Virus record (IMG/VR): IMGVR_UViG_3300037156_000076
Span: 1-50,643 of that record
Length of the DNA: 50,643 nt
DNA from: a virus
Direction: 5' to 3' (one strand)
The notes beneath the pieces were generated by a model. That model saw only the letters and a list, made by a program, of their open reading frames with translations, did no database searches and was not told where the DNA came from. A program made the position numbers and the translations under genes. Shown here piece by piece: positions 2,978 through 44,874 of this stretch; position 1 is the stretch's first letter, and every line of letters begins with the position of its first letter.

Positions 2978-3032
2978 AAGACCTTAATGAGGCCCTATCG
3001 CAGATCCGGTGGTTTGTCGCTGCGATGGGTGA

Positions 3033-3061
3033 ACAATACCGCCGGTATTGTATAAGGTCAA
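3033..3061 (-). promoter_or_regulatory. pL-like early leftward promoter
   Basis: The minus strand reads TTGACC (3061-3056), a 17-bp spacer, then TATTGT (3038-3033). Operator oL1 covers the -10 and spacer and oL2 overlaps the -35, so repressor binding should block it. It would start transcription near 3026, into the boxA leader and the leftward operon. Confidence 0.75.
3034..3050. promoter_or_regulatory. Repressor operator oL1
   Basis: CAATACCGCCGGTATTG is a perfect odd-length palindrome with 8-bp arms around a central C. It matches the operators beside the repressor gene at 5641-5706 and overlaps the pL -10. Confidence 0.8.
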
Positions 3062-3075
3062 TACCTCCGGTCATG
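3059..3075. promoter_or_regulatory. Repressor operator oL2
   Basis: CAATACCTCCGGTCATG shares the left arm and core of oL1. Its centre is 25 bp away, the same spacing as between the sites at pR. It overlaps the pL -35 and the base just upstream. Confidence 0.7.
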
Positions 3076-3092
3076 TTATTTTCACACACCCA

Positions 3093-3119
3093 CAAAAAAG
3101 CCCGCTCAGTCGGCGGGCT
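3093..3119 (-). terminator. Intrinsic terminator, second of tandem pair below the immunity operon
   Basis: On the minus strand AGCCCGC and GCGGGCT form a 7-bp stem with a seven-base loop, followed by six T. It lies between the end of the repressor operon and pL, and should stop repressor-operon transcription from entering pL. Confidence 0.8.
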
Positions 3120-4832: not shown

Positions 4833-5630
4833 CTACAAATCCCCGCCACGCCAGATCACCTGGCCAGTGATGCGGTGCTCGTATATCTCGCCGTCAGGCA
4901 ATACCTGATCGGGGTACTTAGACTCATCCGGGTTGTCGCTCTGGATAATCCAGGAGCTGCCATGTTTGATGAGGCGCTTTACCAGCGTGCCTTTTTCTTG
5001 ACTCTCCAGAACAAATATCCCGCCATCCTTTGGCTCGATACGCGACCCGTCTACTAGCAGTACGTCGTGGTCGCTGATCGTTGGCCACATGCTTTCGCCA
5101 TGGGCATAGATCACCTTGAGGTTCTTCGGATTAACCCCCTTGATTCGTAGCCAGTCGCGCTTGAACGCCAAGGTGTTGCGGAGGACTACGTGCGTGTTGT
5201 CGTACCCATTGCCGGCAGCAGCCTTGGCCGTGTACTGATCAACAAAGGCGAAGTCGTCCCAGTTGGTAGTGACAGGCTCACCTACCTTAAGCGGTACAAC
5301 ATTTTCTGCGCCCGCGGTCTCGGCTCGATCCACCACAACCGAAAGGGACGAGGCCATGCCTTCAAGCTGGTCGGCTAGGGTAGGGCTGAATTCCGAGACA
5401 GGCACATGGAGTGCTCTTGCGAAAACTGTCGCAGCACGAAGGCTTAATGCGGTTCGCCCATTCATGAAATGACTGACCGCGCCCTGGGTAACCCCTTCGC
5501 CCAGTTCGGCGGCGATCTTTTCCTGGGTCAGCTTAAGCTCTGCGCGCTTCTTCATGAAAATCGCTTTCAGCCGGGCGCTGTCTAGCAGCTGCCAGTCTGA
5601 GAGAGGGAGTCTTCTGGAGTCTTTAGTCAT
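4833..5630 (-). CDS. cI: CI-like prophage repressor with S24 peptidase domain
   Basis: 265 residues. Residues 31-80 form an XRE-type helix-turn-helix (LTQEKIAAEL, then QGAVSHFMNGR). The C-terminal half is a LexA/UmuD-type self-cleaving domain with the catalytic Ser in GESMWPT (Ser180), Lys in LVKRL (Lys218), and a probable Ala139-Gly140 cleavage point in AAAGNG. It should bind the five 17-bp operators at 5641-5706 and 3034-3075 and be inactivated in the SOS response. There is no Shine-Dalgarno sequence; the predicted pRM start is only a few bases before the ATG, so the mRNA may be leaderless. It heads an operon with the two rex-position genes. Confidence 0.92.
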   Translation of the reverse strand: MTKDSRRLPLSDWQLLDSARLKAIFMKKRAELKLTQEKIAAELGEGVTQGAVSHFMNGRTALSLRAATVFARALHVPVSEFSPTLADQLEGMASSLSVVVDRAETAGAENVVPLKVGEPVTTNWDDFAFVDQYTAKAAAGNGYDNTHVVLRNTLAFKRDWLRIKGVNPKNLKVIYAHGESMWPTISDHDVLLVDGSRIEPKDGGIFVLESQEKGTLVKRLIKHGSSWIIQSDNPDESKYPDQVLPDGEIYEHRITGQVIWRGGDL

Positions 5631-10187: not shown

Positions 10188-10468
10188 GCGAATCAATCGA
10201 AGCTTTCGAAGTTTGGCGGAAACAGCAAATCGCCTCACTGGTACGCACTGGGCACCTTGACGCGGCTCGCGCCTTCGAGCAGCTCGGATCTATTCAGGGG
10301 AGCGTCTGGGATTCGGCATGGCAGGCATCCCGCGAGACGCCGGTGATTAAGCGCCCCGAAAAATGCGAGTTCGCCGAGCCTGATGGTTCGTATCACAAAG
10401 GATATCGCCAAGGGATGCGCAGCATGGTCGACGCCATCGAGGCCGCCGGCCTGAAGGTGTCGCAATGA
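10184..10468 (+). CDS. Hypothetical protein, paralogue of 9709-10014
   Basis: 94 residues beginning MSESIEAFEVWRKQQ, with SAWQASRE in the middle and GYRQGMR..VDAIEAAGLKVSQ at the end, matching the neighbour at 9709. I use the ATG at 10184 (overlap with the upstream stop) in place of a longer frame that would cover the lipoprotein end. Function unknown. Confidence 0.7.
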   Translation: MSESIEAFEVWRKQQIASLVRTGHLDAARAFEQLGSIQGSVWDSAWQASRETPVIKRPEKCEFAEPDGSYHKGYRQGMRSMVDAIEAAGLKVSQ

Positions 10469-11397
10469 GCGAATTTTCGGGCGTCGAGCACAACGTAATT
10501 AGCGTCAGTGGTGGCAAGGACTCGACAGCGCTACTACTTCTTGCCATCGAGTTAGGCGTGGGGAATATGCAGGCTGTATTCGCTGATACAGGTAACGAGC
10601 ATCCGCAGACTTACGAGTATCTCGATTACTTGGAGCAGAAGCTGGACTTGAGCATACGGCGTGTTAAGGCAGATTTTTCTCGCCAGATCGCCGGTAAGCG
10701 AGCGTTTGTAGAGGTGAAGTGGAGAGAGATGGGCGTCTCTGAAAGCATAGTTGCCGATGCTTTGGCCGTACTTCAGCCAACTGGAAGCCCGTTTCTTGAT
10801 CTTTGCGTTTGGAAAGGCCGCTTCCCCAGCTCTCAAGCTGCGTTCTGTTCTGAAGAGTTGAAGCGCCTGCCGATCACTACTCAGGTTCAAGACCCTCTGC
10901 TGTCAGTCGGCGATGACGTAGTGAGCTGGCAGGGCGTTCGAGCTGACGAATCTTCACGCCGGGCGCTGCTGACAATGCGCGAGCACAAGAGTACTCACGC
11001 TGGCGGCGGGGAGCTGTGGAACTACCGCCCGATCCTGCAATGGGATGTAGAACAGGTTTTCGCCATGCACAGCAAGCACGGCATCAAGCCGAACCCCTTG
11101 TATGCCCAAGGCATGGGTCGTGTGGGCTGCATGCCCTGCATCAACTGCCGCAAAGACGAACTCCTGGAAATCTCCCAGCGCTTCCCCGATCAGGTGGAAA
11201 AGATTCGCCAATGGGAAGTGATTGTGAGCAAAGCCAGCAAGCGCGGATCAGGAACATTCTTCACCAGCGACGCTCGCGGCCACGGCATCGACGAGCTTGT
11301 CGGTTGGAGCCAAACAGCCCGAGGTGGGCAGCAGTTCGACTTCCTTCGGCAGTGGGATTCCCCCGCCTGTACCTCAATTTACGGGCTATGCGAATGA
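10465..11397 (+). CDS. PAPS-reductase-family (adenine nucleotide alpha-hydrolase) protein
   Basis: 310 residues. The PP-loop SGGKDST lies at 15-21 and FADTGNEHPQTYEYLDYL at 39-56 is the typical second element. Cys128 (AFCSEELKR) and Cys222/225/228 (GCMPCINC) could hold an iron-sulfur cluster as in PAPS reductases and DndC. The family activates a substrate by adenylation and moves sulfur or reduces sulfate; the phage members have no settled role, and both DNA or RNA modification and sulfur metabolism are possible. ATGA coupling to its neighbours places it in the early-middle operon. Confidence 0.85.
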   Translation: MSEFSGVEHNVISVSGGKDSTALLLLAIELGVGNMQAVFADTGNEHPQTYEYLDYLEQKLDLSIRRVKADFSRQIAGKRAFVEVKWREMGVSESIVADALAVLQPTGSPFLDLCVWKGRFPSSQAAFCSEELKRLPITTQVQDPLLSVGDDVVSWQGVRADESSRRALLTMREHKSTHAGGGELWNYRPILQWDVEQVFAMHSKHGIKPNPLYAQGMGRVGCMPCINCRKDELLEISQRFPDQVEKIRQWEVIVSKASKRGSGTFFTSDARGHGIDELVGWSQTARGGQQFDFLRQWDSPACTSIYGLCE

Positions 11398-17662: not shown

Positions 17663-18124
17663 ATGATCATCTTCCTCGACATCGATGGTGTGATCTGCAC
17701 CCGCAAGGGCGCCGGATGGACCATCGATGGTCGTCCGCTTTTCCGTAGTCTGATACGTCGTCCAGTACGGGCGATTGATCCAGTTGCAATGCGACACCTC
17801 AACGATCTGTGTGCATGCACGGGCGCTGACGTTGTGGTTTCAAGCATGTGGCGAATTAATCGTGATGTACGAGCGATCTTTACCCGGCGTGGATTCACTG
17901 GGCAATTCCATCAGGACTGGCGCACGGATGCAGATGGTCCGATGCGGTCCGATGAGATTCGCCGCTGGCTTGCTGAGCATGACAATCCGAATCACGTCGT
18001 CATCGATGACCAGATTCAGCAGTTGCTTGAGGTTGCGCACCTGGTGGTGCTGACGAACAACTACTGCGGGCTGACAGGCGCTGACGTGGCGCGTGCCGTG
18101 CAGGTGCTGGTCGGGCAGGGCTGA
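17663..18124 (+). CDS. HAD-superfamily phosphatase (RNA-repair-type HAD domain)
   Basis: 153 residues. HAD motif I is MIIFLDIDGVI (nucleophile Asp6, Asp8), and VVVSSMWRIN near residue 60 is motif II. NHVVIDDQIQ carries the motif IV acids and ends with VVLTNNYCGLT. This arrangement matches the HAD domain found in Swiss-army-knife RNA-repair proteins. It would be a 3'- or 5'-end phosphatase, possibly acting on cleaved host tRNA; that function is inferred. Confidence 0.75.
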   Translation: MIIFLDIDGVICTRKGAGWTIDGRPLFRSLIRRPVRAIDPVAMRHLNDLCACTGADVVVSSMWRINRDVRAIFTRRGFTGQFHQDWRTDADGPMRSDEIRRWLAEHDNPNHVVIDDQIQQLLEVAHLVVLTNNYCGLTGADVARAVQVLVGQG

Positions 18125-34704: not shown

Positions 34705-35103
34705 ATGAATCCCCAGGGATCACAACCAGTTAATACTTCCTACTTCCAATCGCTGACTGACCAAGTCAACGGCGCCGCCAGTTGCGCAGATCTGCAGGCG
34801 CTGACTAACGATGCGTATGCCTCGATCAATACGATGATCGCGAGCATTGAGGCCCAGTTGGCGCTGTTAGCCCCGCTGCTTGATCTGCTGAGCGGACCCT
34901 CGGCCAACCTTGGCGCGATCGTCACTTGGATCAACTCATTTATTGCGAGCTTCCTGACCCCGATGGTCAAGCCGTACGCCACCTATACCGCGCAGCTGAC
35001 GGGACTAGTGGCGCAAATGTCCGCGCTGGCGAGCGCCATCGCTGCCAAGGCATCGAGCTTTGAGCAGTGCGTGGTGGCAGTTCCGCCGGTAGTGATCGCG
35101 TAA
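34705..35103 (+). CDS. Hypothetical baseplate-region protein (132 aa)
   Basis: 132 residues, almost all helical, Ala/Leu/Ser-rich, starting MNPQGSQPVNTSYFQSLTDQ. Located between the gp45-like spike and gp46-like protein and overlapping the latter's start. No family recognised. A small structural or assembly role is inferred. Confidence 0.65.
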   Translation: MNPQGSQPVNTSYFQSLTDQVNGAASCADLQALTNDAYASINTMIASIEAQLALLAPLLDLLSGPSANLGAIVTWINSFIASFLTPMVKPYATYTAQLTGLVAQMSALASAIAAKASSFEQCVVAVPPVVIA

Positions 35104-35546
35104 TGACTGATATCAGCACAACCTGGATCGTAGAGACCGGGACCGGTGACTGGTCTATCAGTGGCGGGGCTTTGGCCAGCGGTGACGACTTGGCCACTGC
35201 CGTCCTGATCAGCTTATTTACTGATCGCCTGGCCGATGCCGACGATGTTCCGCCCGACGGCAGCAACGACCGCCGGGGCTGGTGGGGCGATGACGGCGAG
35301 GACGTACCGATTGGCTCGCGCCTGTGGTTGCTTGATCGCTCGCGCCTGGATGTGAATGTCGCCAACAATGCCCAGATCTACATGGGCGAGGCGCTGCAAT
35401 GGCTGATCGATGATGTCGTCGCAGCTGCCGTCAAGGTAACCACGGTTATTGCCGGTCAAAGCCAGCTGAATGCTTTAGTCAATATTTCCCGAAGCGACGG
35501 CACCGCGATCCCGCTCCAATTCAACTGGGTATGGCGTCAGAATTAG
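35103..35546 (+). CDS. Baseplate wedge protein (Mu gp46-like)
   Basis: 147 residues from ATG 35103. GP46-family landmarks: DDLATAVLISLFTDRLAD, then DRRGWWGDD and GSRLWLLDRSRLDVNV. It is normally followed at once by gp47; here a 2.2-kb cassette is between them. Confidence 0.88.
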   Translation: MTDISTTWIVETGTGDWSISGGALASGDDLATAVLISLFTDRLADADDVPPDGSNDRRGWWGDDGEDVPIGSRLWLLDRSRLDVNVANNAQIYMGEALQWLIDDVVAAAVKVTTVIAGQSQLNALVNISRSDGTAIPLQFNWVWRQN

Positions 35547-35549
35547 TAT

Positions 35550-36131
35550 TCAATATTTGAATTTGAAATTTTCATTGGAGTCTTGAGCTTTCATCTCCTG
35601 CTCGATACAACTATTTAAAACTATATAGGAACCTTGGCTGGCCGTGCCTGCCAATGACTTGCAAGTGTCCTGCATCGTTTTAGGTATTTTCATCCACAAG
35701 GCTTTTACGTTGTTATAAGATATTTGTTCTTGCTGGTAACAGCTCTTACGAACAATTTCAGACGACGAGCTTAGCTGCTGGCAGGTAGCGGCTACATCAA
35801 ACCTTGGTACCGGCCTCAGTTCTGGCGCCTCGCCCGGAACACTCACGCAAAGCTGCCATTGCTTGTCGGATTCTGACTGAACCAGGCTTCTGTCGCCCCA
35901 GCACCAGCCCGAATCCTCTATAGATCGATCCAATATGTCTCTTTTTTTGCAAAATACTTCAGTTGCGGGCTCGTCGCCTCTTCCGTCCCTACATTTGTCG
36001 TTCAGCTCTTCTGCTTGAATAACAATTGGCTCTATTTGCGCCCGGGTAGCAATCGTGCTTGGAGCCGCAGTCGCCTGCAAAGAAATTAATAATAGGGCAG
36101 ACAGAAATGATGATGCTTTCATGTTGGGCAT
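35550..36131 (-). CDS. Exported cysteine-rich protein, sieA-position cargo gene
   Basis: 193 residues. Signal peptide MPNMKASSFLSALLLISLQATAA (cleavage after ~23), with no lipobox. The mature part has eight cysteines spaced as CRDG, FCKK, WCWG, LCVS, TCQQ, SCYQ, TCKS and SCIE, suggesting disulfides in the periplasm. The C-terminal half (SCYQQEQISYNNVKALW, then SYIVLNSCIEQE) looks like a small periplasmic domain. Start at 36131 has AAGGA. It is co-directional with and abuts the Mnt-like gene and is AT-richer than the tail genes. Superinfection exclusion is possible by analogy with P22 sieA; not shown. Confidence 0.75.
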   Translation of the reverse strand: MPNMKASSFLSALLLISLQATAAPSTIATRAQIEPIVIQAEELNDKCRDGRGDEPATEVFCKKRDILDRSIEDSGWCWGDRSLVQSESDKQWQLCVSVPGEAPELRPVPRFDVAATCQQLSSSSEIVRKSCYQQEQISYNNVKALWMKIPKTMQDTCKSLAGTASQGSYIVLNSCIEQEMKAQDSNENFKFKY

Positions 36132-36527
36132 TTAATCCTTTATTTTTGAGCTGGACGCCTTCCGTCCAGAGTCAGCTTCGGAGACCTGTACCGCTCTAGC
36201 TGTCGCGTGACGGAGGTGTTTCGCCGTCATTTGCTCATGCTGCAGCTCCAGTTGCTCCATCGGGCTTAGCCTCGACTGGCCTAGCAGGTCTCTGATCTTA
36301 TCAACGGTTTCTAGGTACATCCTAGACAAGACCTGCACGGCTGCATCCGTCTCACTAACTGGGATTTTATTGTTCTCGTCTGCAAAGCTTTCTTCTAGGC
36401 GAGCGTGAATCTCCGCGTTGATTGAGCGACGGTTCTTCTCAGCAGCAGCTTCAATTTTCGCCTTAAGCTCGGGCTGCATGCGAAGGCCGAAGGGGTTGAT
36501 GTTGCGCATTGGTTCTTCATTTTTCAT
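36132..36527 (-). CDS. Mnt/Arc-type repressor of the immI-like cassette
   Basis: 131 residues. The ribbon-helix-helix is at about 8-50: MRNINPFGLRMQPELKAKI, EKNRRSINAEIHARLEES. It shares NPFGLRxQPxLK with the divergent small Arc-like gene. The long C-terminal part (50-131) is helical and may mediate oligomerisation. Start at 36527 is about eight bases after the predicted transcript start and lacks a clear ribosome site; an internal ATG at 36509 is possible. It should repress the divergent antirepressor operon in the prophage. Confidence 0.85.
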   Translation of the reverse strand: MKNEEPMRNINPFGLRMQPELKAKIEAAAEKNRRSINAEIHARLEESFADENNKIPVSETDAAVQVLSRMYLETVDKIRDLLGQSRLSPMEQLELQHEQMTAKHLRHATARAVQVSEADSGRKASSSKIKD

Positions 36528-36541
36528 AGCTACACACTGTA

Positions 36542-36592
36542 ACTATAAAATCAGTTGACGCGTAGACACACCGTGTTATCGTTACACCGTGA
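36542..36592. promoter_or_regulatory. Divergent control region of the immI-like cassette
   Basis: Rightward: TTGACG (36555-36560), 16-bp spacer, TATCGT (36577-36582). Leftward: TATAGT (36547-36542), no good -35. Two direct ACACCGTG copies (36568-36575, 36585-36592) and a GTTACA..GTG element lie on the Arc-like side; TACACACTGTAAC just beyond 36528 on the Mnt-like side is a reversed copy. These are the likely operators of the two ribbon-helix-helix proteins. Confidence 0.6.
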
Positions 36593-36611
36593 AATCATCA
36601 AGGAGGAATGT

Positions 36612-36782
36612 ATGAAAACGAGAGGAATCAACCCGTTTGGCCTGCGGTTGCAGCCAGACCTTAAAGACGCCGCGAAAGCGGAGGCCAAGAAGCACCATCA
36701 CAGCCTGAATGTCGAGCTGAGTCTTTTGATAGAGGATGGATTCAAGTGGCGAGATCAGCAAATCAAGCAGGCGAGAGCCTGA
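36612..36782 (+). CDS. Arc-like ribbon-helix-helix repressor
   Basis: 56 residues (P22 Arc is 53). Strand segment RGINPFGLRLQPDLKDAAKAEAKKHHHSLNVEL gives the ribbon and helices. AAGGAGG lies before the ATG. It is the first gene of the antirepressor operon, as arc is in P22, and should switch off ant after infection. Note NPFGLR also occurs in the divergent repressor. Confidence 0.88.
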   Translation: MKTRGINPFGLRLQPDLKDAAKAEAKKHHHSLNVELSLLIEDGFKWRDQQIKQARA

Positions 36783-36788
36783 AACGAA

Positions 36789-36816
36789 GAAACCCCGGCT
36801 TGCAGGCCAGGGTTTC
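36789..36816 (+). promoter_or_regulatory. Hairpin between arc-like and ant-like genes
   Basis: GAAACCC/GGGTTTC stem with an inner GGC/GCC and a six-base loop; no T tract. It could slow translation or stabilise the ant message. Function inferred only. Confidence 0.5.
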
Positions 36817-36850
36817 AGGTAACGAAGTATCTTCTGAGGAAAACAACGTC

Positions 36851-37687
36851 ATGCCGAATAATAGCACAGCAGTTTCGAATGTCATCCCGTTCGATTTTCG
36901 GGGCCATAACATTCGCGCCGTGACGATCGATGGGGAGCCGTGGTTTGTCGCGGCGGATGCGTGCAAAGTCCTCGGGCAGAGCAACACCACGAAAGCCCTG
37001 TATTCATTGGACGATGATGAACGGTCTAACTTTAAGTTAGGGCGTCAGGGTGTGGTAAACATCATCAACGAGTCAGGTCTGTATACCCTGATTCTGCGCT
37101 GCGATGACGCAATCAAAAATGGCAGCCAGGCGCACGCCTTTCGCAAGTGGGTCACTGCCGAAGTCCTCCCGACGATCCGCAAGCATGGCCGCTACGAGGA
37201 TCACTCCAACAAGATGTCGACCCTGGTCGATGACGTCATCGGCGTCAGCGGTACCAATCTCATCAACGGCGTTATCGCCCAAAAGGTGATAATTCTTCCT
37301 GTCGGGATTCAACGCCAGGCCAAGCACAAGCTTCACGCGATTCTGCATACCCGCTTCAATGTTCCACGCACCGAGCTGATTCCGGCTGACAAGTTGGATG
37401 CGGCATGCGCTTATCTGGCCGCATACGTACTGGAGGGGGAGTGGATCGGCAAAGAAGAAGACGTCGAAACTTTTTCCAACCCAAAACCTTTTCAGCGGTG
37501 GCTCGTGAGCTTTGACTACAAGGGTGAGAGGCAGGTCAAGGAGGTCCCTGTAGATGCATGCGTGATGTCTATCTCAGAGTTTCTAAAGCAGATTATTGCG
37601 CCTAATGGTCTGGCTTTGAATCAAGCCGAAGTGTTCGATTTTGCAATTGCAGCAATGCAGCGCCTAAAGGCCCGATCTGCTGCTTAG
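36851..37687 (+). CDS. Antirepressor with BRO-N domain (Ant-like)
   Basis: 278 residues. BRO-N at about 15-115: FDFRGHNIRAVTIDGEPWFVAADACKVLGQSNTTKALYSLDDDER, GLYTLILR and AFRKWVTAEVLPTIRKHGRY. The C-terminal part (about 140-278) differs from KilAC and is of unknown type. GAGGA is upstream. In P22 Ant inactivates the prophage repressor; here the CI-like S24 repressor is the presumed target. Followed by a terminator. Confidence 0.88.
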   Translation: MPNNSTAVSNVIPFDFRGHNIRAVTIDGEPWFVAADACKVLGQSNTTKALYSLDDDERSNFKLGRQGVVNIINESGLYTLILRCDDAIKNGSQAHAFRKWVTAEVLPTIRKHGRYEDHSNKMSTLVDDVIGVSGTNLINGVIAQKVIILPVGIQRQAKHKLHAILHTRFNVPRTELIPADKLDAACAYLAAYVLEGEWIGKEEDVETFSNPKPFQRWLVSFDYKGERQVKEVPVDACVMSISEFLKQIIAPNGLALNQAEVFDFAIAAMQRLKARSAA

Positions 37688-37708
37688 GTCGGCCTAACGA
37701 TCAACAAG

Positions 37709-37730
37709 ACCCGCCAAGTGCGGGTTTTTT
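37709..37730 (+). terminator. Terminator at the end of the immI-like cassette
   Basis: Stem ACCCGC/GCGGGT with a five-base loop and six T, then ATTGCCTGGAG and the gp47 ATG. It ends ant transcription; late transcription must pass it. Confidence 0.8.
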
Positions 37731-37751
37731 ATTGCCTGGAGTTTATCCGTC

Positions 37752-38879
37752 ATGCCATTTACGAGGCCTACGCTCTCGGACCTGCGATCGCGGGTCGCTG
37801 CTGATATTACGTCCGGTCTGCCTACCGCTGACGGCCTGCTTCGATTTTCCAACCTGACGATTTTGGGGAAGGCGCTGGCCGGCTTGGACCACCTGAATTA
37901 TGGATATCTGGATTGGATAGCAAAGCAGGGCACGCCATTCACGTCCTCCGGCGAGTTCTTGCAAGGCTGGGCTGCGCTCAAAAAAGTCTACCCGAAGGCT
38001 GCGAGTCAGGCTGGCGGTGCTGTCACGTTCCCTGCAACCGCTGGGGCGATAATCAATGCTGGCACTGAGGTAGTTCGGGCGGATTCGGCCACGTTCACCG
38101 TGCAGGCGACGGTCACCACTGGAGCGGGCGGAACCGTTGCGGTGACCGTGACGGCAGACATCGCGGGGGATGCGGGCAATACGCCGGTTGGCAGTCTGAT
38201 GACCTTAGGGTCATCGATTGCGGGGATTCAATCGAGCGGGGCGGTGACCTCGGTCATCACCGGTGGCGCGGACCAGGAGCAGGACGATTCCCTGTTTGCG
38301 CGAATGCTCTCGGCTTACCAGAGCACGCCCAATGGTGGCTCCCAAAACGACTACGAGACCTGGGCCTTGGCCGTGCCCGGCGTCACTAGAGCCTGGTGTT
38401 CGCCGAATAGTTTCGGCGCGGGCACGGTCGTCATGTATGTGATGTTCGACGAGGCCAATGCTGCATACCAGGGCTTCCCGCAAGGAACGAACGGCATATC
38501 TGCCAGCGACAACCGCGTCACCTCCGCGAACTTGGCGGTCGGCGATCAACTCACCGTCGCCAATAGCATCTTCGTCGAGCAGCCCGTGACGGCGATGGCC
38601 TATGTCTGCGCACCGATAGCGACCCCGGCCAATTTCACGATCACCGGTCTCACCGGCGCCTCGACTACGACGCGCGCCGCCATTGCCGCTGCAATTACGG
38701 ACGTATTACTGACGCAGGGCGCACCGCTCTCTGACGGATCGTTTGTCTCGCTGTCGGACATCGATTCGGCAATCTCCGCGATCGCTTCAACGAAAGGGTT
38801 CGTGATCACGTCCCCGGTGGCGAACATCACCAACACCTTGGGCCATTTGCCGACTCTGGGCGTCATCACGTATGGGTGA
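37752..38879 (+). CDS. Baseplate wedge protein (Mu gp47, baseplate J family)
   Basis: 375 residues. Baseplate J landmarks: RPTLSDLRSRVAADI at the start, TSSGEFLQGWAALKKVYPKAASQAGG, GTEVVRADSATFTVQATVT, and DSLFARMLSAYQSTPNGGSQNDYETWALAVPGVTRAW. Overlaps the next gene's upstream ATG. Confidence 0.93.
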   Translation: MPFTRPTLSDLRSRVAADITSGLPTADGLLRFSNLTILGKALAGLDHLNYGYLDWIAKQGTPFTSSGEFLQGWAALKKVYPKAASQAGGAVTFPATAGAIINAGTEVVRADSATFTVQATVTTGAGGTVAVTVTADIAGDAGNTPVGSLMTLGSSIAGIQSSGAVTSVITGGADQEQDDSLFARMLSAYQSTPNGGSQNDYETWALAVPGVTRAWCSPNSFGAGTVVMYVMFDEANAAYQGFPQGTNGISASDNRVTSANLAVGDQLTVANSIFVEQPVTAMAYVCAPIATPANFTITGLTGASTTTRAAIAAAITDVLLTQGAPLSDGSFVSLSDIDSAISAIASTKGFVITSPVANITNTLGHLPTLGVITYG

Positions 38880-38886
38880 GGTCTCC

Positions 38887-39483
38887 ATGTCCAAGTATTC
38901 GTTTTCCAGTGCCGATTTCACGTCTGCACTGCTTGGCTTGCTTCCCCGTGGTCGCGTTTGGCCCAAAGAAATGTCGAGTGTCCAGGCTCAGGCAGTTTCC
39001 TGTTTTGCCCCGACGTTCCAGCGATTGAGCGATGCAGGTTTAGGCCTGCTGACGGACATGTTCCCGTCGACCACGATCAATTTTTTGACCGAGTGGGAAG
39101 CAACTCTGGGGCTGCCAGATCCCTGCGCCGGCATGTCTCCCACATTCCAGGGGCGGCGCAACCAGGTTGTGGCGCGCTTTACCAACACCGGCGGACAGTC
39201 GATTCAGTTCTTTATCGCGTACGCGCTGGGCCTTGGCTATGCCGTGACCATTACGCAATACGCACCATTCCGCTGCGGGCAAAGCGCCTGCGGTCAGCAA
39301 CTCGGTGGCGCCGACTGGTTCTTCACCTGGTCCATCAACACCCAGCTCAACACCGTCAACTATTTCCGGGCAGGACAATCAGTTGCCGGCGAGCCACTGT
39401 CGTCTTGGGGCAACAAAGTTATCGAGTGCGAGTTATCCGAAGCCAAACCGGCACACACCATCTTGCAGTTCCATTATTCGTGA
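38887..39483 (+). CDS. Baseplate protein (Mu gp48 / YmfQ-like, DUF2313)
   Basis: 198 residues from ATG 38887, which has GAGG five bases upstream; a start at 38872 (five codons longer) is less well placed. Landmarks: ALLGLLPRGRVWP, then FLTEWEATLGLPDPC, and GRRNQVVARFTNTGGQS. Terminates the baseplate block before the fibre. Confidence 0.9.
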   Translation: MSKYSFSSADFTSALLGLLPRGRVWPKEMSSVQAQAVSCFAPTFQRLSDAGLGLLTDMFPSTTINFLTEWEATLGLPDPCAGMSPTFQGRRNQVVARFTNTGGQSIQFFIAYALGLGYAVTITQYAPFRCGQSACGQQLGGADWFFTWSINTQLNTVNYFRAGQSVAGEPLSSWGNKVIECELSEAKPAHTILQFHYS

Positions 39484-43568: not shown

Positions 43569-44375
43569 CTAGGCCCCTTCTTGGTCTTTCGTAACCAGAT
43601 CTGCCCAGTCTTGCATCATCGCTCTTCGATGATCCAGGTAGTTCGCGTGGTTATAGATGTCGCGGATGGTGCTTTTGTCGCCGTGGGCAAGTTGGCGCTC
43701 AACCCAGTCCCGATTATATTCACGCCCGTTCATCTCGGTTGAGAACATATGTCGGAAGCCGTGCGGGGATTGCTTGCCGGTTAGACCGCAAAGTTCCAGA
43801 ACGCCAACGGCATAATTAATGCCGATCGGGCGAGCGGTGTCATTCCGGTTAGGGAAGACATACCGATTCCCTCCAGATATTGGCAGCATGGTTTTCAGCA
43901 ATTCAACTGCCTGCGTTGGCAGCGGGATCATATGCTCGCGGCGCATCTTCATCTTGGCTGCGGGAATCGTCCATGTTGCTGATTCTAGATCGATCTCCGA
44001 CCACTCGGCCTTTCTTACCTCTGCCGGGCGCGCGACGGAATAGATCACCATCATGGTCGCGACCTTGTGCGGATGGCCCGACTCGCAATCCCAGATCATT
44101 TTAATGATGCTCGGCATTTGTTCGAAGCTCAGAAACGGTCGATGCTTGTGCGGCTCCATCTTTGTCGTAACGGTATTCATGTGCACTGTGGGGTCGTTTT
44201 CAACTATCCCGCTGGCGATGGCGTACCGGAAAACCTGACTAATCCACTGCCTACCCTTTACTGCCTGGGTAATCGCACCGCGGCGCTCAATCTTGCGTAT
44301 CAGGCTGATGATGTCGGCACGCTTGATGGCGTCGATCTGTCGAGCACCGAGGGCCGGAAGAGCATCAAGATCCAT
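43569..44375 (-). pseudogene. int: Tyrosine integrase (P4-type), N-terminally truncated
   Basis: About 269 residues match a P4-type integrase from ALPALGARQIDAI onward: RRGAITQAVKGRQWISQVFRYA, first catalytic Arg in YSVARPAEVRKAEW, box II HGFRHMFSTEMN, and the Tyr in HANYLDHRRAMM. The usual first ~120 residues (arm-binding domain and start of the core-binding domain) are absent. The frame runs on to 44471 over the end of the 169-residue gene, without homology. No ribosome site precedes ATG 44375. Catalytic residues are intact, so loss seems recent. Confidence 0.8.
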
Positions 44376-44874
44376 CGCATTGCTGATTATCTTGAATGTC
44401 GCCAGCGTCAAAGCTGCCGCCCTCGAAGGCTGCATCAACCATCTCGCAAGCAAAAGCACGAAGCTCCGCATTCCGCTGCTCGGCGATGGTCAGGCGCTGA
44501 TGGAGGTCTTTAGCGTGGGCCGACCAATAACCGCCACAGTCATTCCAGCCATTACAGTATTGCGTTGCGCTTGCTCCAGGGTTCCCAGAGAAGTCATAAG
44601 GAAGGATTTGTTTTACTGGGCGCTTCCAAGCGTCCAAAGCGCCAGGGATGAACCCTTGATGATCCAGGCTATGGCTGAGATTCCAAGCCTGATCTATTTT
44701 CTCGTTCGCCTTCGTCAGCTCCTCCAGCGCCTTCGCCTCCCCAGCCAGCGCATTATTCAACTGCAACTGAAGGTCAGCCACTTGCTCGGCGGTCATATTT
44801 CCGCAAGTCCTAAGGTAGTCCTGATGATCTCGGGCGTAGCGTTGTTGTAGGGTTTCGTCTTGATTGGTGGGCAT
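44365..44874 (-). CDS. Hypothetical phage protein, probably C-terminally truncated
   Basis: 169 residues, coiled-coil start (about 28-62), then YCNGWNDCGGYWSAHAKDLHQRL and a last recognisable AEQRNAELRAFACEMVDAAFEGGSFDAGDIQ. This last element normally continues in similar Pseudomonas phage proteins as I recall them, but here the frame ends within eight residues, at the integrase junction. AAGGA precedes the ATG at 44874. Confidence 0.65.
   Translation of the reverse strand: MPTNQDETLQQRYARDHQDYLRTCGNMTAEQVADLQLQLNNALAGEAKALEELTKANEKIDQAWNLSHSLDHQGFIPGALDAWKRPVKQILPYDFSGNPGASATQYCNGWNDCGGYWSAHAKDLHQRLTIAEQRNAELRAFACEMVDAAFEGGSFDAGDIQDNQQCDGS

Follow-up and report, generated by a model that had tools for sequence, protein, structure and literature searches.

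A gene cassette laid out like the immI region of phage P22 lies between the gp46-like and gp47-like genes in the Mu-type tail operon of a temperate, Pseudomonas-type phage. We consider it very probable that this cassette is an immI-type "ant moron", i.e. a lysogeny-control unit that has its own transcription and occupies a cargo site in the late tail operon. The window, by which we mean the whole stretch of DNA that was analysed, has 50,643 bases and is a virus record from IMG/VR. Besides a CI-like repressor and an integrase, the phage carries lambda-type replication genes. The relevant features are:

4833-5630, minus strand: CI-like repressor, possible Ant target (HTH_3 1e-8, Peptidase_S24 2e-14, phrog_4 3e-41)
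35103-35546, plus strand: gp46-like baseplate wedge gene, left neighbour of the cassette (PF07409 GP46 4e-33, phrog_180 2e-44)
35550-36131, minus strand: exp193, exported protein encoded at the end of the leftward mnt operon (no Pfam family; one PHROG match)
36132-36527, minus strand: Mnt-like ribbon-helix-helix (RHH) repressor (PF03869 Arc 2e-9)
36528-36611: divergent control region between mnt and arc
36555-36582, plus strand: candidate promoter Pant, TTGACG-16-TATCGT
36568-36580 and 36584-36596: candidate operator, a 13-nt direct repeat
36612-36782, plus strand: Arc-like RHH repressor, 56 aa (weak Arc and HicB RHH matches, 1.8e-3 and 3e-4)
36785-36853, minus strand: sar-like antisense RNA over the arc-ant junction, ends approximate, terminal hairpin 36816-36789
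36858-36885, minus strand: candidate promoter Psar, ATGACA-16-TATTAT with an extended -10, within the start of ant
36851-37687, plus strand: Ant-like antirepressor with BRO-N, 278 aa (PF02498 8e-21; phrog_245 "anti-repressor Ant" 3e-47)
about 37709-37733, plus strand: intergenic terminator-like hairpin before gp47, with hairpin and T run common to the relatives' sites
37752-38879, plus strand: gp47-like Baseplate_J gene, right neighbour of the cassette (PF04865 2e-58)
38872-39483: gp48 gene, downstream of gp47 (Phage_Mu_Gp48 match)
43569-44471, minus strand: integrase

The original prediction had placed a leftward exported protein and an Mnt-like repressor, and a rightward Arc-like repressor and a BRO antirepressor, between gp46 and gp47, and the open reading frames, their strands and the Pfam and PHROGs matches agree with this. 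The phage was also said to possess a CI-type system already, which is borne out by the protein with HTH_3 and Peptidase_S24 domains. Since the TAA of the Mnt-like gene directly precedes the ATG of exp193 (TAAATG), both leftward genes look like one operon. When compared with PDB by sequence, the Mnt-like protein matched Arc chains (E 4e-7 for the engineered pArc, and 1e-3), while Mnt itself (1mnt) gave an E of 0.56; the Mnt C-terminal domain PF11423, present in P22 Mnt, was not detected in it by Pfam at E 0.1. The Arc-like protein scores 18.5 with the Arc family and thus falls just short of the gathering cut-off of 20.4; it shares 44% identity over 48 aa with the Mnt-like protein. For the window Ant, no solved structure related by sequence was found. 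Elsewhere in the window there are a HAD_SAK_2 domain protein (an RNA repair type family) at 17663-18124, shortly upstream of the terminase gene, and a phosphoadenosine phosphosulfate reductase-like gene at 10465-11397 in the early region.

In the divergent control region, the search for an inverted-repeat operator (36500-36640) gave only the 13-nt direct repeat. A TTGAC-like -35 element is located 280-307 nt upstream of the ant ATG in all 23 loci scanned, including P22, and is exactly TTGAC in 22 of them; the distance is 296 nt in the window and 298 nt in P22.

The arc-ant junction contains a hairpin of 11 bp, and several observations suggest that it belongs to an antisense RNA. The best Rfam family for a 131-base stretch at the arc-ant junction was RF00262 (sar), with 22 bits and an E of 0.015, which is below the gathering threshold of 43; P22's own sar scores 97.8 bits, and RF00262 was not among the matches when a 4-kb stretch was searched. 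The predicted fold of the RNA has an energy of -27 kcal/mol (z -4.2). The candidate Psar agrees with the consensus at 10 of 12 positions and is the best of four matches in 35500-37800, where 2.2 were expected. For comparative analysis we aligned 22 loci, namely the window, five IMG/VR loci, 15 Pseudomonas genomes and UFJF_PfDIW6; P22 was left out, L075 was excluded from both alignments (A1 and A2) as a near copy of L053, and L127 and L190, in which sar was found by the model only, also stand outside them. Psar is conserved across the 22 sequences. In the hairpin columns 96.7% of 273 cells are paired, compared to 83.1% in shuffled alignments and 30-58% in slid versions of the hairpin, and 46 cells show two-sided changes compared to 13.7 in shuffles. 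Seven pairs have such a change, which is unremarkable, as this count was matched or exceeded in 66 of 500 shuffles. Read as minus-strand RNA, the hairpin contains 32 G-U cells versus two A.C cells, and these wobbles indicate that it is kept on the minus strand; all 22 sequences likewise have their T-richer flank on that strand.

Further support for Psar comes from codon usage at the start of ant. Threonine at codon 6 (codon 5 in L102) is encoded by the rare ACA in 20 of 21 sequences, compared to 11% of 279 threonine codons further on. A codon bias close to gene starts is a known general effect, so that this conservation supports Psar but is no proof of it.

A covariance model built from the 22 loci (R1), which does not include P22, finds P22 sar at 3016-3103 on the minus strand (annotated at 3022-3091) with 38.9 bits and an E of 3e-8. 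It also matches Kapi1 with 38.0 bits and GF-2 with 36.7 bits, in the latter at the arc-ant junction. Since the window sequence is part of R1, only P22, Kapi1, GF-2 and the later genome matches count as independent. In a class-wide scan, eight of 360 genomes matched at E 1e-4; one (G001) is a member of the model, and the other seven, at 30-33 bits, were treated as noise. The scores of P22, Kapi1 and GF-2 are thus above the level that doubtful whole-genome matches reach. The matches in L116 and L196 (26-29 bits) were too weak to be counted. Altogether, the window probably encodes a sar-like antisense RNA with a promoter of its own, overlapping the ant start. Our literature search, judged by listings and with subscription journals mostly outside its scope, found no report of a sar RNA in Pseudomonas phages; searches combining antirepressors with antisense RNA or with tail genes, and those on DUF3077 and "ant moron", likewise gave none.

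To place the cassette in its operon, we compared the gp46/gp47 junction among relatives. The two genes were predicted to be normally adjacent, and this is indeed the case: among 48 IMG/VR loci with a gp47 relative, both genes are visible in 42, and the gap is 7-75 nt in 39 of these. The remaining three carry other cargo (546 nt of identical gap sequence in L020 and L021, and 625 nt in L034), while a gap of 174 nt in L042 was discounted because its gp46 match was partial. Among Pseudomonas genomes, the gap is 57-64 nt in L098, L100, L101 and L212 and contains cargo in L099 (the same place as L211) and in L213; the gap of L214 stands outside these counts. The cassette itself was found at gp46/gp47 in none of the 42 IMG/VR relatives and in none of these Pseudomonas loci. 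It is therefore no fixed part of the tail module, and the tight junctions of the relatives show that in the window it is an insert.

In relatives with a gp47 at least 60% identical, one other joint is loose: gp43/gp44 is either empty, with 10-40 nt, or holds 420-750 nt of cargo, and the remaining joints from gp44 to gp48 are tight. This tail operon thus has two cargo joints, and the cassette occupies one of them. At both, single-gene cargo is mostly a leftward gene whose product has a signal-like or membrane-type start, as judged by eye; the L020/L099 insert at gp46/gp47 contains short ORFs only and no clear gene. The gp43/gp44 joint of L098 (3.2 kb) carries a leftward HTH_3 repressor, an Arc-like gene, a BRO-N ant, a P22_AR_N antirepressor and a leftward exported protein. 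Looking at L098 (1111-4314) and at gp43/gp44 of L099, L016, L022, L039 and L213, we usually saw one leftward exported or membrane protein.

The cassette had been predicted to end in its own terminator. This had to be revised: a plus-strand terminator-like hairpin with a T run precedes the gp47 ribosome-binding site at 26 of 27 sites including the window, L031 being the one exception, and it occurs at empty sites as well. The terminator is therefore resident and no part of the cassette. The hairpin criteria were also met by 106 of 1080 mononucleotide shuffles. As the hairpin is resident in the relatives, it must be read through or tolerated by their late transcription, and in the window a transcript from Pant would be expected to stop there as well. 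Terminators within late operons are reported for phage L. We further noted that, within this essential tail operon, base changes in the gap hairpin of relatives preserve the stem. Matches to isrK and to the Trp leader at this terminator were far below the cut-offs and were rejected as chance.

Related cassettes were found at other tail joints when this one was sought in other phages. We compared 24 cassettes that carry sar, namely those of the window, of L102 and of another 22 loci (with L053 nearly a copy of L075), and 23 of them adjoin tail genes; these loci were reached via similarity to the window Ant and the tail references were mostly those of lambda and the window, so this census is biased. 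Eleven cassettes are located between K and either I or J of lambda-type tails and seven upstream of the tape measure gene H; for two only the downstream side is visible, with I/J, and one each is located next to a tailspike gene, at gp43/gp44 and at gp46/gp47. In the remaining locus, L192, no reference tail gene was found within 9 kb, and a neighbour matches a tail-fibre PHROG at 2e-17. Within a contrast set of 15 other ant loci, R1 detected a clear sar in one (L200), and L210 alone had a lambda J match within 9 kb, on the opposite strand. In L182, L184, L185, L193 and L194, HTH (XRE-type) repressors replace the RHH protein at the mnt place (Pfam was run on the L194/L098 one). In the sar-bearing cassette of L190/L127/L233, the BRO-type ant ceases to show similarity beyond approximately 27 residues, and a second ant follows about 430 nt downstream.

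R1 was then applied to 398 Pseudomonas species genomes, of which 31 matched at E 1e-6; 15 of these had supplied model sequences and 16 had not. In all 17 examined loci outside the model, an Arc-type gene is located upstream of sar. The leftward gene is of the RHH type in ten and HTH-like in seven, the latter assigned largely by eye with two of them tested by Pfam. The gene behind sar, the output, is P22_AR-like in three loci, AntA in one, Rha or Rha-like in two, ORF6N, AlpA and a broken BRO-type gene in one each, and DUF3077 in eight (Pfam run on three of the eight). Antirepressor outputs are found in lambda-type tails in L262, L264, L266 and L267, between sheath and tape measure in L261, and beside a tailspike gene in L265. 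Around the eight loci with a DUF3077 output (L252-L259), no reference tail gene was seen over 8 kb (in L254 one side ends at 3.7 kb). For L255, the one tested, an antirepressor gene downstream and a nearby CII-like gene were confirmed. The output protein of L252-L259 has 103-104 aa, and these loci appear to lie outside tail operons, with an antirepressor-like gene after the output and CI/CII-type genes nearby.

These data suggest that in Pseudomonas different outputs can be exchanged behind the mnt/arc/sar control unit, namely BRO-N, P22_AR, AntA, Rha, ORF6N, AlpA and DUF3077. We lean towards the view that mnt (or an HTH repressor), Pant, arc and sar form a portable control chassis of Pseudomonas phages, behind whose conserved sar/ant start the output is exchanged. 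Such a chassis would have entered unrelated tail operons at different joints (K/I of the lambda type, upstream of the tape measure gene, and gp43/gp44 or gp46/gp47 of the Mu type). It would also occur in early control regions, where its output is DUF3077 and an antirepressor-type gene comes next.

The accessory gene exp193 is probably, by analogy to sieA in P22, a gene for lysogenic conversion or superinfection exclusion. Its product has a signal-like N terminus (by eye), belongs to no Pfam or PADLOC family and matches one PHROG of unknown function. Its single relative, 59% identical, lies just upstream of gp44 in L021; none was found in 50,697 phage records, in 398 Pseudomonas genomes (a scan without positive control) or by an IMG/VR pattern scan. 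A structure model from the two-sequence alignment is of low confidence (mean pLDDT 63.9) and had no fold match with E < 0.001 in the PDB or viral fold search.

How the cassette may work, in each regulatory step and in the target of Ant, is modelled on P22. In a lysogen, the Mnt-like protein, made together with exp193 from a leftward promoter, would repress Pant, and no antirepressor would be produced. Upon infection of a cell lacking this Mnt, Pant would fire and Arc and Ant would be made; Ant may then inactivate a CI-type repressor, belonging either to the phage itself or to a heteroimmune prophage already in the cell, and Arc would later turn Pant off. The sar RNA, starting inside ant and ending at the hairpin after arc, would cover the ribosome-binding site of ant and lower the amount of Ant. 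Finally, the resident hairpin may keep Pant transcripts out of the tail genes, and late transcription would have to pass it.

Other readings of the locus can be considered. The cassette could be mainly a device for tuning late genes, in which its transcription and the hairpin control the supply of polymerase to gp47, gp48 and the fibre gene, and the antirepressor is secondary. The P22 ant moron is said to affect the amount of late transcription reaching the tailspike gene, and the hairpin before gp47 is conserved. However, relatives have this hairpin without the cassette, 39 of 42 have no insert at all, and tuning would leave the conserved sar and the repressors unexplained, which makes this reading very unlikely. 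If, alternatively, the hairpin between arc and ant acted only as an attenuator on the plus strand, in an otherwise immI-like cassette, no antisense RNA would be needed, and the hairpin is indeed able to fold on either strand. The excess of G-U over A.C cells (32 vs 2), the T-richer minus-strand flank in 22 of 22 sequences, the conserved promoter-like minus-strand site in ant and the match to P22 sar along its length argue against this, and we give it hardly any credence.

Ribbon-helix-helix proteins also act as antitoxins. Together with the HicB profile match (3e-4), this could point to a toxin-antitoxin or defence cassette with an antitoxin-like RHH regulator and no tie to immunity. In contrast, no toxin partner was seen, PADLOC assigns exp193 and Ant to no defence family and gives for the Mnt-like protein only a weak partial PbeA match (5e-4), and the P22 layout is matched including sar; such a cassette is therefore scarcely probable. 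We thus prefer the immI-type control unit.

The secondary immunity circuit of P22 is found in textbooks and is known chiefly from phages of enteric bacteria. The authors of the epsilon34 paper raised the question whether the 16/9 joint alone tolerates such a moron. In the loci described here, the P22 layout together with a sar-like RNA recurs in a different genus, at several joints in tail operons that are unrelated to each other, and both repressors and outputs have been exchanged. Pseudomonas thus allows direct tests of why late operons harbour antirepressors and of how a single antisense RNA can serve different outputs.

Among named systems, P22 immI is the closest point of reference, and the original prediction of the P22 mnt/arc/ant arrangement stands, with the sar-like RNA adding to the fit. 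The order in the P22 record is 16, sieA(-), orf59a(-), mnt(-), arc(+), sar(-), ant(+), terminator, 9. The window shares with it the order and strands of mnt, arc, sar and ant, the divergence of mnt to the left and arc-ant to the right, the arc-ant hairpin and one or more leftward accessory genes beyond mnt. Late structural genes flank both cassettes, and the CI-type repressor of the window phage is encoded separately. The window cassette differs in the site (gp46/gp47 of a Mu-type tail instead of 16/9), in its resident terminator and in the accessory gene (exp193 at the place of sieA). Moreover, its Ant has BRO-N, whereas P22 Ant consists of P22_AR_N and P22_AR_C, and its Mnt lacks the C-terminal domain. 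The likeness to immI therefore holds for the layout and, by sequence and covariation, for sar and fails for the P22_AR-type Ant and the Mnt C terminus. The P22 immI region is named "ant moron" and described as fast-varying (PMC2629481), its deletion is reported to reduce lysogeny (PMC11016777), and Edno5 is described as having an ImmI, so named, alongside cI/cro/cII (PMC6372524).

In Edno5, GF-2, Kapi1 and UFJF_PfDIW6, gene order and directions equal those in the window. The Edwardsiella myoviruses Edno5 (L178) and GF-2 (L173) also have mnt/arc/ant among tail genes (the position in Edno5 is taken from its record), but upstream of the baseplate hub group and with a different accessory gene. The Pseudomonas locus L194/L098 is similar to the window in arc, sar, the BRO-N ant, the leftward exported protein and the type of tail operon; it differs in its gp43/gp44 site, in the HTH_3 repressor at the mnt place and in the second antirepressor (P22_AR_N) that follows. 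The locus was originally thought to be a new place for such an arrangement. As a kind of location it is not, considering P22 immI between 16 and 9 and the tail-gene sites of Edno5, GF-2 and most Pseudomonas relatives; within what was searched, only the exact address is new, gp46/gp47 of a Mu-type tail. In summary, the cassette likely works like immI and, given its different Ant and Mnt domains, is a variant rather than a strict member of the immI type.
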